This document shows, one piece after another, positions 20 to 7,591 of a stretch of 64,000 bases of DNA. A model generated the notes under the pieces. That model was not told the DNA's origin. It saw only the letters and a list, made by a program, of their open reading frames with translations, and made no database searches. The DNA is from Clostridia bacterium (GTDB lineage: Bacteria > Bacillota > Clostridia > Saccharofermentanales > Saccharofermentanaceae), in NCBI GenBank assembly GCA_016281535.1, contig JAEEIT010000129.1, forward strand, positions 1 through 64,000, given 5' to 3'. The position numbers were made by a program, and so were the translations under genes. The stretch's first letter is position 1; the number at the start of each line of letters is the position of its first letter.

Positions 20-2830
20 ATGAAACAGTATGAAGTGACGGGCATGAGTTGCGCGGCGTGTCAGGCGCGCGTGGAGAAGGCGGTCAGCAAGGTGCCGGGT
101 GTGACCGGCGTGGCCGTGAGCCTTCTTACCAACTCCATGGGAGTGGAAGGGGACGCGGACAGCCGCGCCGTGATCGAAGCGGTCGTGAAGGCCGGGTACG
201 GCGCGTCTCTCAAGACCGGAAAATCCGGAAAACCGGCACAGAAGACCATGTCCGGTCCGGACACTTCTTCACCGCATCCGGCCCGGGCTTCGTCGGCAGA
301 AGCAGAAGCTGAAGAGGCTGTGCTGAAAGATACCGAGACCCCGAAGCTCATCCGCCGCCTGATCCTGTCGGCCGGGTTCCTTCTTATCCTGATGTACATT
401 TCCATGGGACACAACATGTGGGGATTCCCGCTGCCATCGTACTTCGATCACAACCACCTCGGCCTGACGCTCCTTCAGATGCTCCTGGCCCTGACGGTCA
501 TGATCATCAACAGGAAATTCTTCGACAGCGGCATCCGCTCGCTCCTCCACGGCGCGCCGAACATGGACACCCTCGTGGCACTGGGCTCCGGCGTGTCGTT
601 CCTTTGGAGCCTCGTCGTGTTCTTCCGGATGTGCGGCATGATCACGAACGGCGCCGCCAATGCCGAGCTGCACGACCTGTATCACGGCCAGCTCTACTTC
701 GAGTCGGCGGCCATGATCCCCGCCCTCATTACGGTGGGAAAAGCACTGGAGTCGAAGAGTAAGGGCCGTACGACGGATGCGCTGCGTTCGCTGATGAAGC
801 TTTCGCCGAAGACTGCGCGCGTCCTGCGTCCGGCAGAAGCCTGTGGCACGGATGCGTGCGCCATCACTTCGGAAGAGCATGCACATGCCGACGGAGCAGA
901 TGCACAGAACGATGCAGCAACGGAACCGGCGCTCACCGAGTTCGTCGTTCCGATCGAAGATGTGCAGGTCGGCGATCTTTTCGCCGTGAAACCCGGAGAG
1001 AGCATCCCGGTGGACGGCGTGGTCGTCGACGGGCAGAGCGCAGTCGATGAGTCGGCGCTCACAGGCGAATCGATCCCGGTCGATAAGAGCGCCGGCGAGA
1101 AAGTCAGCGCCGCCACGATCAACCGCTCCGGTTACCTGCGCTGCCGCGCCACCCGCGTGGGCGAAGACACGACACTGTCGCAGATCATCCGCATGGTATC
1201 CGACGCCGCGGCGACGAAAGCCCCGATCGCGCGCATCGCGGACCGAGTCTCGGGGATCTTCGTACCGACCGTCATCGGCATCGCGCTTCTCGTGACCGTC
1301 ATCTGGCTCCTTACCGGAAAAGAAGCAAGCTTCGCACTGGCCCGCGGGATCTCCGTCCTCGTGATCTCCTGCCCCTGCGCACTGGGGCTGGCGACCCCGG
1401 TAGCCATCATGGTGGGAAACGGACTGGGCGCGAGAAACGGTGTGCTGTTCAAGACGAGTGAGTCCTTGGAACAGACGGGAAAAGCATCGATCGCGGTGCT
1501 GGATAAGACGGGGACCATCACGTCCGGTCAGCCCCGCGTGACGGGGATCCTGCCGAACGAAGGCGTGACGGAAGAAGAACTGCTTCTTCTGGCATATGCA
1601 TTGGAAATAAAGAGCGAACATCCGCTGGCACGCGCCATCGTAGAAGAATACGAGAGAAAAGAACTGAACGGGACAAAGACCGGAAGAACGCAGGTGCCCG
1701 AAGCAGAGGACTTCTCCATCCAGGCGGGTCATGGACTATCGGCACGGATAGACGGAAGAACCGTCCGCGGCGGAAGTAGCCGTTACATACGTGCATTCAC
1801 CGGCATTCCGGAAGAACTGGAAGCGAAGGAAAGAGCCGCGACAGAAGCCGGGCAGACGCCGCTTCTGTTCGAAGAAGACGGCAAACTTCTGGGCATCATC
1901 ACGGTGGCGGACAGCATGAAGGAGGACTCAGAAGAGGGCATCCGGCAGATGCGGAATCTGGGACTTTCGGTAGTCATGCTGACCGGAGATAATCCGCGCA
2001 CGGCAGACGCCATCGCGAAGAAAGCCGGCGTGGATTATGTCGTGGCCGGCGTCCTCCCGGACGGGAAAGCCGACGTGGTGAAAGACCTTCAGAAAGAAGG
2101 GAAAGTAATCATGGTCGGCGATGGGATCAACGATGCGCCTGCGCTGACGACTGCCGATATAGGGATCGCCATCGGTGCCGGCACGGATGTCGCCATCGAC
2201 AGCGCCGACGTGGTCCTCATGAACAGCCGCCTGACGGATGTGGCCGCAGCGATCCGCCTGAGCAGAAAGACACTACGGAACATCCATGAGAACCTCTTCT
2301 GGGCGTTCTTCTATAACATCATCTGCATCCCGGTCGCGGCCGGGATCCTGTCCTGGAAGATGAACCCGATGATCGGCGCGGCAGCCATGAGCATCTCGAG
2401 TTTTACCGTGTGCATGAATGCCCTGAGACTGAACCTTTATTCCATGCGGGACAGCTCGCATGATAAAGCGATAAAAGGAAGAGGACCTGCGGCCCTCCCG
2501 CTTCCGAAGCCCGGTGCAGCTTCGGAAACGGCGATGAAAACACCGCAGGCCGATTCCGAAAAGACATCTGAAACCGTATCAAATCCGGAAACGGAGAAAG
2601 GGAGTGCAAAAATGAAGAAAGTACTAATTATCGAAGGCATGATGTGTGGCCACTGTGAGGCCTCCGTGAAGCAAGCACTGGAGGCTCTGCCGTTTATTAC
2701 CTGTGCGGCACCGGATCACACCAGCAACACGTGCGTGGTCGACATCACGGATGGGGGCGACTGGGATGAGCAGACCGTAAAGGCTACCATCGAAGGCAAG
2801 GACTATAAGTACCTCGGAACGAAAGAGTAA
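20..2830 (+). CDS. copA: Copper-translocating P-type ATPase with N-terminal and C-terminal HMA domains
   Basis: GMSCAAC HMA motif, CPCALGLATP, DKTGT, TGESIPVDKS and GDGINDAP motifs; C-terminal GMMCGHC HMA domain. Confidence 0.95.
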   Translation: MKQYEVTGMSCAACQARVEKAVSKVPGVTGVAVSLLTNSMGVEGDADSRAVIEAVVKAGYGASLKTGKSGKPAQKTMSGPDTSSPHPARASSAEAEAEEAVLKDTETPKLIRRLILSAGFLLILMYISMGHNMWGFPLPSYFDHNHLGLTLLQMLLALTVMIINRKFFDSGIRSLLHGAPNMDTLVALGSGVSFLWSLVVFFRMCGMITNGAANAELHDLYHGQLYFESAAMIPALITVGKALESKSKGRTTDALRSLMKLSPKTARVLRPAEACGTDACAITSEEHAHADGADAQNDAATEPALTEFVVPIEDVQVGDLFAVKPGESIPVDGVVVDGQSAVDESALTGESIPVDKSAGEKVSAATINRSGYLRCRATRVGEDTTLSQIIRMVSDAAATKAPIARIADRVSGIFVPTVIGIALLVTVIWLLTGKEASFALARGISVLVISCPCALGLATPVAIMVGNGLGARNGVLFKTSESLEQTGKASIAVLDKTGTITSGQPRVTGILPNEGVTEEELLLLAYALEIKSEHPLARAIVEEYERKELNGTKTGRTQVPEAEDFSIQAGHGLSARIDGRTVRGGSSRYIRAFTGIPEELEAKERAATEAGQTPLLFEEDGKLLGIITVADSMKEDSEEGIRQMRNLGLSVVMLTGDNPRTADAIAKKAGVDYVVAGVLPDGKADVVKDLQKEGKVIMVGDGINDAPALTTADIGIAIGAGTDVAIDSADVVLMNSRLTDVAAAIRLSRKTLRNIHENLFWAFFYNIICIPVAAGILSWKMNPMIGAAAMSISSFTVCMNALRLNLYSMRDSSHDKAIKGRGPAALPLPKPGAASETAMKTPQADSEKTSETVSNPETEKGSAKMKKVLIIEGMMCGHCEASVKQALEALPFITCAAPDHTSNTCVVDITDGGDWDEQTVKATIEGKDYKYLGTKE

Positions 2831-2832
2831 CC

Positions 2833-4167
2833 TTACGGGGATGGGTCCGGATTCGGACCACATATCTCATGAACTCTTTCTTGCATAAGCTCGAAGAGCG
2901 ATATCGGTGGTTCGTCGAACCCCATTACATCGAAGGGGAGACGTGTCGTATCGTCTTCCACAGGAACGCCGTAAGGAAGAAGGGGATCGGTCCCTTCCGT
3001 GATCCCCCCTTTCGAAGCGGACCTCGTACCCGACGATCTGGGGCAGGCGCGTTTCCTGCCGTTCATCTCGGTGAGCATCGAGTAGAAGAGATCTCTGTCG
3101 TCATTGTCGAGAAGCGGGATCAGACCGCGGATCGTCGTCGTAGAGAAAGAACGGCATTCGTGCAGGACCGCCTCCTTGAAATGCCCGATGGCCCATGTGT
3201 TGAAGGGGTCCTCGGGCCAGAGCATCTTCGCATAGCTGATGCGGCCTCGAAGAGAGAACAGATAGTGACGGATATCCGCATTCGAGCAGGGAGACCGGTA
3301 CCACTCCGGACGTGTCTTCTCGAGATGTTCTTCCACGCCGTATTTACAGACGTAGTAGAGTTCCTGACGGAGCTTCTGGCGGTAGACACGCTTCGCACGT
3401 ACCCGGTCGTTGACCACGGCGCCTGTGACTTCGCGGCGCTGGCCGGGACCGAGATAACGTGTCTTCTTCACGTTCAGTTCGAAATGATACGAGGAAAGAA
3501 GAAGCGCGACCGTGTTCTTCAGCAGTTCCACGTCGAAGGGAAGGGGACTGGAGAACGTCATGTCGTCACAGTAGCGCGAGTATGCAATACCGGAGTTCAG
3601 GCAGAAGATCGAAATGATGTTGTCGAAGTCGGAAAGGACCAGATTGGCGATCTGCGGCGAAGTGCAGGCTCCCTGGCAGAGCGCACCGTTATAGCACAGA
3701 AGACGCGTCAGCGTGCCCAGGATCGCACGGTTATAGTGGGTGTGCTTCTTAAGCATGGAGTAGACCAGGCTCTTGCGGATGCTCTCGAAGAAGTGGCGGA
3801 TGTCCAGCTTCAGCATATAGCGGCATCCGGCATGCACCTGCGCGTTGTCTCTCGCGGAGCGTCCTTTCCGATAGGCAAAAGCATAGTCGGCCGTGTATTC
3901 CCGGTCCAATGGATCGAGGATCGTTACCTTAATGAATTTCTGGAGAAGACGCAGATCCGGGGAAACCTCGAAAACGATACGCTTCTCTTTACTGTTGCGC
4001 TTGGGAATGCTGTGCTTCTTATAGTAAGGTGCAACATTGTCCAGGATGGTCTTGATCCTTCCCGCAGTGTAGAAGATATCGTCGCTTCGTAAGCTGTTTC
4101 GCATGAAGCGGTGATACTGATGTGTGAAACTGTAGAGTGAATCCATATAGGGAAGCGAAGGTTTCAT
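2833..4167 (-). CDS. Retron-type reverse transcriptase
   Basis: Motifs DNAQVH (NAxxH), LDIRHFFESI, QGACTSPQIANL, YSRYCDDMTF (YxDD) and EVTGAVVND (VTG). Start chosen at 4167 (MKPSLPYMDSLYS) with GGAG 10 nt upstream; the longer ORF to 4362 runs through the ncRNA locus. Confidence 0.9.
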   Translation of the reverse strand: MKPSLPYMDSLYSFTHQYHRFMRNSLRSDDIFYTAGRIKTILDNVAPYYKKHSIPKRNSKEKRIVFEVSPDLRLLQKFIKVTILDPLDREYTADYAFAYRKGRSARDNAQVHAGCRYMLKLDIRHFFESIRKSLVYSMLKKHTHYNRAILGTLTRLLCYNGALCQGACTSPQIANLVLSDFDNIISIFCLNSGIAYSRYCDDMTFSSPLPFDVELLKNTVALLLSSYHFELNVKKTRYLGPGQRREVTGAVVNDRVRAKRVYRQKLRQELYYVCKYGVEEHLEKTRPEWYRSPCSNADIRHYLFSLRGRISYAKMLWPEDPFNTWAIGHFKEAVLHECRSFSTTTIRGLIPLLDNDDRDLFYSMLTEMNGRKRACPRSSGTRSASKGGITEGTDPLLPYGVPVEDDTTRLPFDVMGFDEPPISLFELMQERVHEICGPNPDPSP

Positions 4168-4195
4168 ACGTGTAGTTCTCCAAGTATAAAGAAAT

Positions 4196-4392
4196 AGAGG
4201 CCACAGACCGGTCATACCTGATGGTGTTTGTCCGAAACGTTCTATTGAGCTCCTCAATAGGACGGGTTCGGAGTCTCGGAATTCGCTCGAGAATTCCGAG
4301 CACACTCCCGAATTGGATGCATGGACGCCGACTCGGCGGCCCTCGTCTAGACTAATCGCCAAAACGAATCTCTATGCCGGTCTGTGGCCTCT
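4196..4392 (-). ncRNA. Putative retron msr-msd ncRNA
   Basis: Perfect 16-bp inverted repeat agaggccacagaccgg (4196-4211) / ccggtctgtggcctct (4377-4392) flanks a hairpin-rich 165-nt segment directly upstream of the RT start, the classic a1/a2 layout. Confidence 0.8.
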
Positions 4393-4405
4393 GGTGTTAT
4401 GTGTA

Positions 4406-6703
4406 TTAAGATGCGCGTCTGGTCACCTCGATCGTCACGTTGCGGATGCCTGTGAATCGTGCGCGGATCAGCTTCGAGAAGGCTCTGGCGCTCTCGTAAT
4501 CCTTGAAGAAGGAGACGAGCTTCGAGTTTTCGAGGAGACTCGGAAGCGAAGCGCTGGATCTGACGCTGTGGCGGATGCACATCCGGAACAGATCGTAGTG
4601 TTCTTTCTCCGGCGTGTCCGAGATGTCGATGATGACGCTGTATCCGGCGGCCTTGTCTGAAGGACCCGAAGAAGTCTCCTTCGGTACTTCAGAGATTGCC
4701 GTCTTTCTCGGGCGGCCGCGCTTCTTCTTCTCGGGCGGGGCAGATGCCGAAGTTTCTGCTGCAGCTTCTGCTGTGGCGACCTTCTTCGGGCGGCCGCGCT
4801 TCTTCTTCTCGGGCGGCGCAGATGCCGAAGTTTCTGCTGCAGCTTCTGCTGTGACGGCCTTCTTCGGGCGGCCGCGCTTCCTCTTCTCCGGAGGCTTTTC
4901 TGCCGAAGCTTCTTCTGCGGCTTTCGCATCCGCGACCTGATGCATCGCATGGGCGATCTTCCCGGCGACGTCCTTCCGCATGCGTTCTTCCTCCGCCCTC
5001 TTGTCCGCTGCCATCTTTAACGCTGTGGCGAGCATCTGGGCATACTTATACTTGCGGATCTGCTCGGATGGAGTGACATGTTCCTCGTAGATGGGTTTAA
5101 ACAGGTCAGGGTCGTGCTCCCAAGGCGTGTATGCCCAGTGCTTCGGAGCCGGAGCCTTCTCTTCCTCCTCATCGTCCTTCAGGCCGAGAGAGTTGATGGT
5201 GTCCTGGATCTCTTTGATTATTTCATCTGCCTTTACGTTCTTCTTTTTTTCCTCAGCTTCCATGTTCCTGTTCATCACTTCCGCGACGAAAGGATGCAGA
5301 GCTGGTCTCGTCTTCTTGATCGCCCCGCGTTCGGGGACATGTACCGCCTTGGGAAGATCCTTCAAGGTGATGATCTCGGTAAAATCCGGAAGCTGCGTGA
5401 TATATTTCAGCCGTCCGCTCTTCAGGACGAGGACCTCGCCGTTATTCAGAGACCCCAGCTGTGTCGGCGTGACCAGAGGTTCCACGGTATCCGCATCGTT
5501 GTCCACCTTCAGACCGCATTTCGAGGAGAGCTCGCGAAGAGTGTTCAGCTCATTCGTACGGTAGGCGATAAGCGTATCCGCATTGGCCAGGATCGTACTG
5601 GCTTTGCTTCTTCCATAGAGCGTATCCAGCTGGGAGAAGGACTGGATGACGAAGAACGTGCGGATGTTGCGCGAGCGTCCGGCGGTCATCAGGCAGTCGA
5701 GCATCGGAAGAGAGCCTCCGATGTTCCCGAGTTCCTCGATCACCACGTTCATGCGGCGCGGGAGACGTCCGTCGTACTTCGTATGGGCGATACGGATGTG
5801 GTGGGAGACGATCTGGGCCAGGATGATCGACGCCAGAGTCGAGTAGTTCTTGTTCTCGTCCGGAAGGATGATATAGATGGCGACCTTCTTCTTGCCGTCG
5901 AGCTCGGACATCTTAAAAGAGGCGTCGCTCATCAGCTCGGTGATGGCCGTGCTTGTCATGAAGGTGTTCAGAGGCTCGAAGAAACAGCTCTTGATGGAGC
6001 CCAGCGTATCCGTCGGGGCAGAGCGCACGTTGCCCAGAAGACGTGTAAAAGGCGCATTCGGGAAAAGCTCGCACATCTTGTCCAGGTAGCGGATGGGACC
6101 GAGACGCGCGAAGAGATCACTCGCGATCTTAATCAGTCCGTCCGGGTGGATGTGATCCGGCGTACCGTACTCGAAGAGCATATACATCACGGCGGTGAAG
6201 AAGGACTTGGCCGAGCTGTCCCAGAAGGGGTCACGCTGGGCGTGGATACGCTCGCTGTCACCGTAGATGCAGTCGGCAATATTTCTTAATGTCTCGATCC
6301 CCATCTGCTTATCAGAAGGGTTCGAGCTTTTGTAGTTCTCGTACGCATAACCGAAGAGATCGAAGCCGTCGCTTCGGGTCAGATCGCGGAAATCGAATAC
6401 CTTGATATAGTAACCGCGCTGCTTAGCGAGGCCATAGGTGGAGGCGAAGATGTCCCCCTTCGGATCCACAGACAGGAAAGACTCTTCAGCCTGGATCATG
6501 GACATGGTCATGGGGATCGTACCGCGACGGGTCTTCCCGCAGCCGGTCACCCCGAGAAAGATCGCGTTCGACTCGGAGCCGCTGACGTAGGGTTCGCCTG
6601 TTTCCCAGTCCATGAAAAGCACCGGACCGCTGCTTGTGCCGTCGGCTTTCGAAAGCTCACGTTTGATTTCTTCTTCCGAAGAAAATTCCACATTTTCTAT
6701 CAT
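4406..6703 (-). CDS. Orphan VirD4/TraG-like (type IV coupling protein family) ATPase with C-terminal AT-hook-like repeats
   Basis: Walker A GVTGCGKT, Walker B-like MNVVIEELGNIG, VirD4-type 'FLSVDPKGDI' and 'TAGRSRNIRTFFVIQS'; three KKRGRPKK-type motifs; AGGAGG 12 nt upstream of ATG at 6703. Confidence 0.8.
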   Translation of the reverse strand: MIENVEFSSEEEIKRELSKADGTSSGPVLFMDWETGEPYVSGSESNAIFLGVTGCGKTRRGTIPMTMSMIQAEESFLSVDPKGDIFASTYGLAKQRGYYIKVFDFRDLTRSDGFDLFGYAYENYKSSNPSDKQMGIETLRNIADCIYGDSERIHAQRDPFWDSSAKSFFTAVMYMLFEYGTPDHIHPDGLIKIASDLFARLGPIRYLDKMCELFPNAPFTRLLGNVRSAPTDTLGSIKSCFFEPLNTFMTSTAITELMSDASFKMSELDGKKKVAIYIILPDENKNYSTLASIILAQIVSHHIRIAHTKYDGRLPRRMNVVIEELGNIGGSLPMLDCLMTAGRSRNIRTFFVIQSFSQLDTLYGRSKASTILANADTLIAYRTNELNTLRELSSKCGLKVDNDADTVEPLVTPTQLGSLNNGEVLVLKSGRLKYITQLPDFTEIITLKDLPKAVHVPERGAIKKTRPALHPFVAEVMNRNMEAEEKKKNVKADEIIKEIQDTINSLGLKDDEEEEKAPAPKHWAYTPWEHDPDLFKPIYEEHVTPSEQIRKYKYAQMLATALKMAADKRAEEERMRKDVAGKIAHAMHQVADAKAAEEASAEKPPEKRKRGRPKKAVTAEAAAETSASAPPEKKKRGRPKKVATAEAAAETSASAPPEKKKRGRPRKTAISEVPKETSSGPSDKAAGYSVIIDISDTPEKEHYDLFRMCIRHSVRSSASLPSLLENSKLVSFFKDYESARAFSKLIRARFTGIRNVTIEVTRRAS
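4711..4876 (-). repeat. 78-bp tandem repeat encoding 26-aa AT-hook-like units
   Basis: ggcggccgcg recurs at 4711, 4789 and 4867 with near-identical intervening 78-bp units, encoding (KKRGRPKK-VATAEAAAETSASAPPE)n. Confidence 0.85.
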
Positions 6704-6934
6704 GCTAAGTCTTTTCCTCCTATTTACTTTCCCGGCCATGAAGATGGCGAAGAGATCTTCTGACGAGGCGGGGCCCGTACACCTGTACGGACCGTACCCG
6801 CCTTTCAGAGATTCAGCCGTCTGGGATGTGACGGCCATTTATCCAAGACGGAAAGAAGAAGGAGAGTGCCTGCCTCCCACTTCGTTCCGCGACTCGGTGG
6901 ATCTGGGATCCCGGATAACCGAAAAGGATAGAAA

Positions 6935-6967
6935 AACCGTCCGATTATTCGAGAAATCCGGACGGTT
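6935..6967 (-). terminator. Rho-independent terminator
   Basis: 9-bp perfect stem aaccgtccg/cggacggtt followed by a T-run on the minus strand. Confidence 0.6.
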
Positions 6968-7000
6968 GCGAGAAACGGATATAGGTGTCGCGTCAATACG

Positions 7001-7147
7001 CTAACACTGCAAACGTCCTGATATAGGGATGTGAACGATGAAGATCCCGGAAGGATAAGGGCCAACGGCTCTTACGAGTCCATAGATCGGGAGATTCAAC
7101 GTATGTCTGTTGATCGTGTCGAATCCGTATTCAGTTGTCTTACTCAT
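7001..7147 (-). CDS. Small 48-aa protein MSKTTEYGFDTINRHTLNLPIYGLVRAVGPYPSGIFIVHIPISGRLQC, unknown function
   Basis: Strong SD AAAGGAGGTG 8-9 nt before ATG; promoter-like elements upstream and terminator downstream. Confidence 0.5.
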   Translation of the reverse strand: MSKTTEYGFDTINRHTLNLPIYGLVRAVGPYPSGIFIVHIPISGRLQC

Positions 7148-7328
7148 GTCGTTCACACCTCCTTTAGTAAAAAAATAGGAAGTTCTGTCCGCCGCACACT
7201 TGTGCACATCTATCGATGCGCTTCGATGTATCGATCAAATTGGACAGGCACTTCCGATTCACTCTATACAAACCGTATTCAGTTGTGAAGCCCGATAAGA
7301 AGGACTTTTCCTCCTGAGGGTAAGATGA

Positions 7329-7357
7329 ATTATAACTCTACTTCCTGACCAGCGCAA
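7329..7357 (-). promoter_or_regulatory. Sigma-70-type promoter
   Basis: Minus-strand TTGCGC-17 nt-TATAAT. Confidence 0.5.
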
Positions 7358-7514
7358 TAGGTTCGGGACGATTTTTTTGTTCGTTTTTCGTAAAATCTCA
7401 GACCCGGCTTGAAATGACGGGCTTTCCGGGAAGAAAAGAAAAATCCGGGATGAGTTTCCGGTTTCCCCTTGATTTCTTTCCGGACTTCCTGTAAACTCTT
7501 ATAGTCACATGAAT

Positions 7515-7591
7515 GGGTGGTTAGCTCAGCTGGTTAGAGTACTTGCTTGACATGCAAGGGGTCGATGGTTCGAGTCCATTACTACCCACCA
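7515..7591 (+). tRNA. tRNA-Val (GAC)
   Basis: Cloverleaf: acceptor GGGTGGT/ACTACCC, D-arm TTAGCTCAGCTGGTTAGAG, anticodon arm CTTGC-TTGACAT-GCAAG, T-arm GGTTCGAGTCC, encoded CCA. Confidence 0.95.

Follow-up and report, generated by a model that had tools for sequence, protein, structure and literature searches.

A previously unlabelled retron from a gut Clostridia bacterium lies in one cassette with a VirD4-like ATPase gene

Does the minus-strand reverse transcriptase (RT) gene on contig JAEEIT010000129.1, from a gut Clostridia bacterium, belong to a retron, and, if it does, with what partner would the retron act? Retrons are bacterial elements that produce small, branched molecules of RNA and DNA and mostly serve in phage defence. 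We analysed the first 64,000 nucleotides of the contig (this whole stretch is referred to here as the window), in which a sequence-only reading had proposed a complete retron made up of an RT and an msr-msd noncoding RNA (ncRNA) locus. Judged from its sequence, the element is a retron by every criterion, genuine and previously unlabelled. Both the RT and the ncRNA of the earlier proposal were real, but the proposal covered only part of the cassette, which also has a VirD4-like ATPase gene, a 48-amino acid (aa) open reading frame (ORF), and a regulatory leader. The retron itself comprises the following features.

2833 to 4167, minus strand: retron RT gene, 444 aa, starting at the ATG at 4167, with NAQVH, LDIRHFF, YCDD, and VTG motifs and a C-terminal tail containing PFDVMGFDEPP
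4196 to 4392, minus strand: msr-msd ncRNA, 197 nt, with a1 at 4377-4392 and a2 at 4196-4211
4372, minus strand: candidate for the priming (branching) guanosine, part of a CATAG immediately internal to the a1/a2 stem

The motifs by which the RT had been recognised were located at residues 108 (NAQVH), 121 (LDIRHFF), 199 (YCDD), and 247 (VTG), and the protein has the NAxxH of region X, the VTG of region Y, and the intact YxDD that together serve as the retron criterion. YCDD had been regarded as a departure from the usual YADD, but it is normal here, being found in 88 of 89 relatives of the RT, and has been reported for the Ec107 RT (PMC6868368). When the RT was searched against the PADLOC hidden Markov models (HMMs), RT_Ec107-like was the top hit (279 bits, 9e-84), followed by type III-A (254 bits). 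The St85 retron RT led the NCBIfam profiles (6e-58), and the NCBIfam group II model, whose cutoff is 300 bits, scored 61. The closest solved structures in the PDB were the retron RTs Ec86, Kva2, Ec83, Ec78, and Ec67. In a maximum-likelihood tree, the window RT grouped with retron RTs, together with four homologues from the same genus and close to two g5 RTs (L116 and L117), while the group II-like RTs from the same bacterial family fell far out. Profile ranking and phylogeny both upheld the proposed retron identity. A 95/99 branch of the tree, which sampled few other retron types and included no diversity-generating retroelement (DGR) RTs by name, put the window RT outside the Ec107-like crown and the III-A and St85-type rows, and we therefore place it near the Ec107-like group and not inside it. 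No relatives of the RT were found in the viral contigs searched.

The perfect 16-bp inverted repeat that had drawn attention to the region upstream of the RT was found as described (4196-4211/4377-4392), enclosing 197 nt and ending 28 nt from the RT ATG. The program-made ORF list extends the RT to a TTG at 4362, into the ncRNA, as had been noticed. The repeat is far beyond chance: when 82 upstream regions were dinucleotide-shuffled into 820 sequences, no arm reached 12 bp, and the folded RNA (-98.4 kcal/mol) had a z of -8.15 against shuffles. Among related RT loci, 38 of 82 carried a correctly placed inverted repeat with arms of 10 bp or more, compared to 0.85% of shuffled regions. The ncRNA architecture was common to five species, and in a consensus structure built from a sequence-only alignment of these, 89.7% of cells were paired and 20 pairs had changed on both sides, versus 7.9 in shuffles and 1-9 in slid versions. 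Most of the a1/a2 helix did not vary, and in four of its pairs both sides had changed; covariation was seen in this stem and in the msr/msd hairpins, so that folding and covariation both favoured the a1/a2 pairing suspected at the outset. According to a published rule, the guanosine used for priming is most often found within TAGC and lies where the a1/a2 stem ends on its inner side (PMC6868368). CATAG was unchanged in all five species, and the a1 arm ended in A followed by G in 34 of the 48 related loci whose arm measured 9 bp or more, which fits that rule. Rfam held no model for the ncRNA or for the leader described below.

The cassette to which the retron belongs, and its surroundings, include three larger features.

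4406 to 6703, minus strand: gene for a soluble VirD4/TraG-like ATPase with the type IV coupling protein fold, 765 aa, a candidate effector or partner
20 to 2830, plus strand: copA-type P-type ATPase gene, a flank outside the cassette, with the insertion site fixed at the gene's 3' end
7515 to 7591, plus strand: tRNA-Val(gac), the other flank, directly beside copA in retron-less relatives

In all five carrier species (the window and L112-L115), the cassette ran in the order of leader and 48-aa ORF, VirD4-like ATPase, msr-msd, and RT, tail to tail with copA, and the insert held exactly these components. The ncRNA started 10-58 nt past the ATPase stop in four of the five loci. Across 23 genomes of the genus, the RT, the retron-linked ATPase clade, and the 48-aa ORF co-occurred in the five species, and none was found alone. 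The gap from copA to tRNA-Val(gac) was 54-263 nt in ten retron-less relatives, and it is between these two genes that the cassette sits in the window and L112-L114. In L115 the cassette sits between copA and c23, which directly follows copA, with no cassette, in L154 and L155 of the L115 background. The cassette was present or missing as one unit at the copA 3' end. Integration at tRNA-Val as a mobility mechanism was considered and rejected, the cassette being at the 5' end of the tRNA gene and carrying no integrase. The ATPase and RT trees both recovered L112 and L113 together, and these two are the nearest rows to the window. In the L112-L113 pair, dN/dS was about 0.26 for the ATPase, about 0.17 for the RT, and about 0.10 for copA; the ATPase and the RT are both under purifying selection. 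Because of the retron RT, the covarying ncRNA with its priming-guanosine context, the joint presence and absence, and the purifying selection, we regard the element as a retron, and the cassette as apparently one unit. The linkage of ATPase and retron is strong.

The ATPase matched Pfam T4SS-DNA_transf (3e-30), but scored 197 bits, below the cutoff of 250, with the NCBIfam model of the CD1115 conjugation family (NF045973). Its start is probably the ATG at 6703, with AGGAGG upstream. It lacks the membrane segment found at the N terminus of the conjugative type IV coupling proteins (T4CPs) of the same bacterial family; N-terminal hydropathy peaked at -0.29 to 0.37 among the five retron-linked ATPases and at about 2-3 for nearly all of the anchored copies. 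The five formed one clade (100/99) within an anchor-less family and apart from the anchored T4CPs. A Foldseek search with the core of the predicted structure gave the VirD4-type coupling proteins Cag-beta and TrwB as closest, and HerA came next, including the SIR2/HerA and DUF4297/HerA phage-defence complexes. The C-terminal half carries AT-hook repeats; within the window gene, three 78-bp tandem repeats (4703-4936) encode AT-hook-like KRGRPKK units. The tails of the other four retron-linked ATPases are lysine-rich or acidic, with no clear AT-hooks. The viral contigs, searched with the ATPase, returned one distant match only, at 27% identity.

Retron-less kin of the ATPase were also seen outside conjugation, where a recurring set consists of ClpP, a small or medium ORF, and the soluble VirD4-like ATPase (L150, 7444-10403; L151, 7387-9980; L186, 6080-9317); in L186, ClpP is clustered with an FHA protein and with radical-SAM-like 4Fe-4S and ClpB-like AAA proteins. 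Since RloB-like and NB-ARC genes lie nearby in L150, the set may perhaps serve in defence. In L149 (10371-13381), an ATPase of the same family is followed after about 18 nt by an uncharacterised, acidic-tailed protein of 258 aa, which occupies the position that the retron has in other loci.

The sequence-only reading had also remarked on a proline-rich and acidic C-terminal tail of the RT of about 95 aa, which composition bore out (proline 12.6% vs 4.0%; acidic residues 17.9% vs 9.5% in the last 95 residues). The tail motif PFDVMGFDEPP of the window resembles PFDVLGWDDPF in L113 and PFDVMGDYFPG in L112. This acidic and proline-rich tail is borne by the ATPase-linked RTs, while the g5 sister RTs with no ATPase neighbour bear a different extension, and it is suggested that the tail is a docking site for the ATPase. 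The extension in the sister RTs (L116, 393-1934; L117, 7432-8991) is C-terminal and about 150-200 aa long, had no Pfam match in L117, the one scanned, and is possibly a fused effector.

Upstream of the ATPase gene, the minus strand holds the leader.

7329 to 7357, minus strand: promoter-like element TTGCGC-17-TATAAT, conserved and seen directly
7169 to 7255, minus strand: leader hairpin H1, GGAAGTGCCTGTCC ... GGACAGAACTTCC, then a T run
7001 to 7147, minus strand: conserved small ORF of 48 aa, MSKTTEYGFDTINRHTLNLPIYGLVRAVGPYPSGIFIVHIPISGRLQC
6932 to 7018, minus strand: mutually exclusive antiterminator (7009-7018/6959-6969) and intrinsic terminator (6959-6969/6932-6943), between the small ORF and the ATPase gene
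6861 to 6878, minus strand: leader hairpin H2, with the loop CAGGCAC

The order of H1, small ORF, antiterminator/terminator alternative, and H2 was kept in all five loci, in each of which the H2 loop CAGGCAC was complementary to GTGCCTG of H1. The antiterminator pairs GGACG..TGC with GCAACCGTCC, more weakly in L114. The small ORF had 48 codons in every copy. When the window, L112, or L113 was compared to L114 or L115, five of the six pairs conserved the small protein to a degree matched by none of 2000 random placements. A search of 115 genomes of the bacterial family found the small ORF (E <1e-5) only with the cassette. The promoter-like element was not listed by a generic promoter scan. The leader looks like a translation-coupled attenuation system.

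For comparison with published retron types we drew on the PADLOC models together with a review and other recent literature. The window retron is like Retron-Eco5 (Ec107) and its kind in its best RT HMM, its YCDD, NAxxH, and VTG motifs, its ncRNA of about 200 nt directly upstream of the RT, and its A|G priming context, but the Ec107 RT is 319 aa and tail-less, whereas the window RT is 444 aa and tailed. Type III-A retrons, such as that on the Vagococcus lutrae plasmid (L201), gave the second-best RT models and are likewise ncRNA-RT systems in Bacillota, but the insert (2831-7514) has neither the phosphoribosyltransferase nor the small DNA-binding protein that they carry. In Retron-Sda1, HipA/DUF3037 replaces the type III effector, which has been read as effector replacement (PMC12548924), and the window retron is similar in joining a retron RT to an unexpected protein partner, here the VirD4-like ATPase. 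That ATPase shares fold and motifs with the VirD4/TraG coupling proteins of the CD1115 family, but differs in its missing anchor, its score below the family cutoff, its separate clade, and an insert without conjugation genes. With HerA phage defence it shares the ATPase superfamily through weaker Foldseek matches; a SIR2 or DUF4297 gene is absent and the partner is a retron, so this is fold resemblance only and not membership. We found no relevant paper joining retrons to VirD4, TraG, or leader-peptide attenuation, and among the described retron types we found none with the combination of retron, VirD4-like ATPase, and 48-aa protein.

The explanation we favour, and judge probable though far from certain, is that the retron is complete, represents a deep lineage close to the Ec107-like and type III-A retrons, and is carried in one cassette at the copA 3' end, with the ATPase under RT-msDNA (multicopy single-stranded DNA) control. 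Most likely, this is a new retron variant that has the ATPase as its effector or partner. Other retrons keep their effector sequestered by the RT-msDNA complex until infection (PMC12548924). Here, the RT would prime from G4372 to make msDNA, and the RT-msDNA particle, perhaps through the motif-bearing tail, would restrain or direct the VirD4-like motor. Phage damage to the particle would release the motor, which would end the infection while sacrificing the cell. Operon expression would be tied to translation by the small ORF and the alternative terminator and antiterminator, and would rise on ribosome stalling. We propose only tentatively, as a possibility that may well prove wrong, a new retron type whose effector is a soluble motor of the VirD4/HerA superfamily docked by the acidic and proline-rich RT tail, and whose operon is switched on under translational stress by the 48-aa protein and a translation-coupled attenuator.

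Several observations weigh against ATPase control by the retron. Only one genus and one chromosomal site show the pairing, which may therefore stem from a single ancestral event; Ec107 is solitary, between pyrE and slmA, whereas the window cassette adds the ATPase and the 48-aa ORF; and neither the nearest sister RTs (L116 and L117) nor the Ec107-like RTs have such an ATPase alongside. The tail motif takes looser forms in L114 and L115, the ATPase structure was predicted with modest confidence (mean pLDDT of 54, with 70-89 in the core), and every genome used is a metagenome assembly or draft. Dozens of Ec107-like retrons were seen in gut Clostridia, Erysipelotrichaceae, and others (L036-L111), many with a clear upstream ncRNA, and no neighbour gene common to these RT loci was found. 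The restriction to one genus and site, the solitary Ec107, and the lack of a common neighbour would all suit a retron that stands alone as Ec107 does, the VirD4-like ATPase being an unrelated passenger that came into the same site and was inherited along. This is nevertheless rather unlikely given the identical insert content without any half-cassettes, the close spacing of ncRNA and ATPase stop, and the maintenance of both genes by purifying selection.

The T4SS-DNA_transf match and the resemblance to TrwB and Cag-beta could instead point to a relic of a mobilisable element, in which the VirD4-like protein was a DNA-transfer coupling protein and the retron its cargo. We consider this improbable, as the empty-site comparison leaves cassette genes only, with no relaxase, integrase, or secretion gene, and as the ATPase lacks the anchor, falls short of the conjugation model, stands in a clade separate from anchored T4CPs, and has kin adjoining ClpP, FHA, radical-SAM-like 4Fe-4S, and ClpB-like AAA genes. 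A group II intron, DGR, or abortive infection (Abi) type RT beside a chance hairpin would account for general RT homology, and we found nothing more in its favour; the retron-specific NAxxH and VTG, the HMM ranking, the tree, the covarying ncRNA, and an architecture repeated in dozens of relatives contradict it and make it very improbable indeed.

Ec107-like retrons are widespread in gut Clostridia, but we found no effector gene common to them. The sister lineage described here, always with a DNA-motor-like ATPase and known from five diverged copies and a clean empty site, offers a testable candidate for the retron's target. If ATPase control by the retron is correct, the VirD4 branch of ATPases joins the retron partners. 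RTs and ncRNAs from anaerobic Bacillota are also potential material for genome-editing tools.

One further locus, L102, was considered as an independent ATPase-retron pairing and rejected, since the matched gene was a P-type ATPase. The distant retron RT at that locus (3581-6990) adjoins a heavy-metal P-type ATPase, much as the window retron lies beside copA, which is probably a coincidence.
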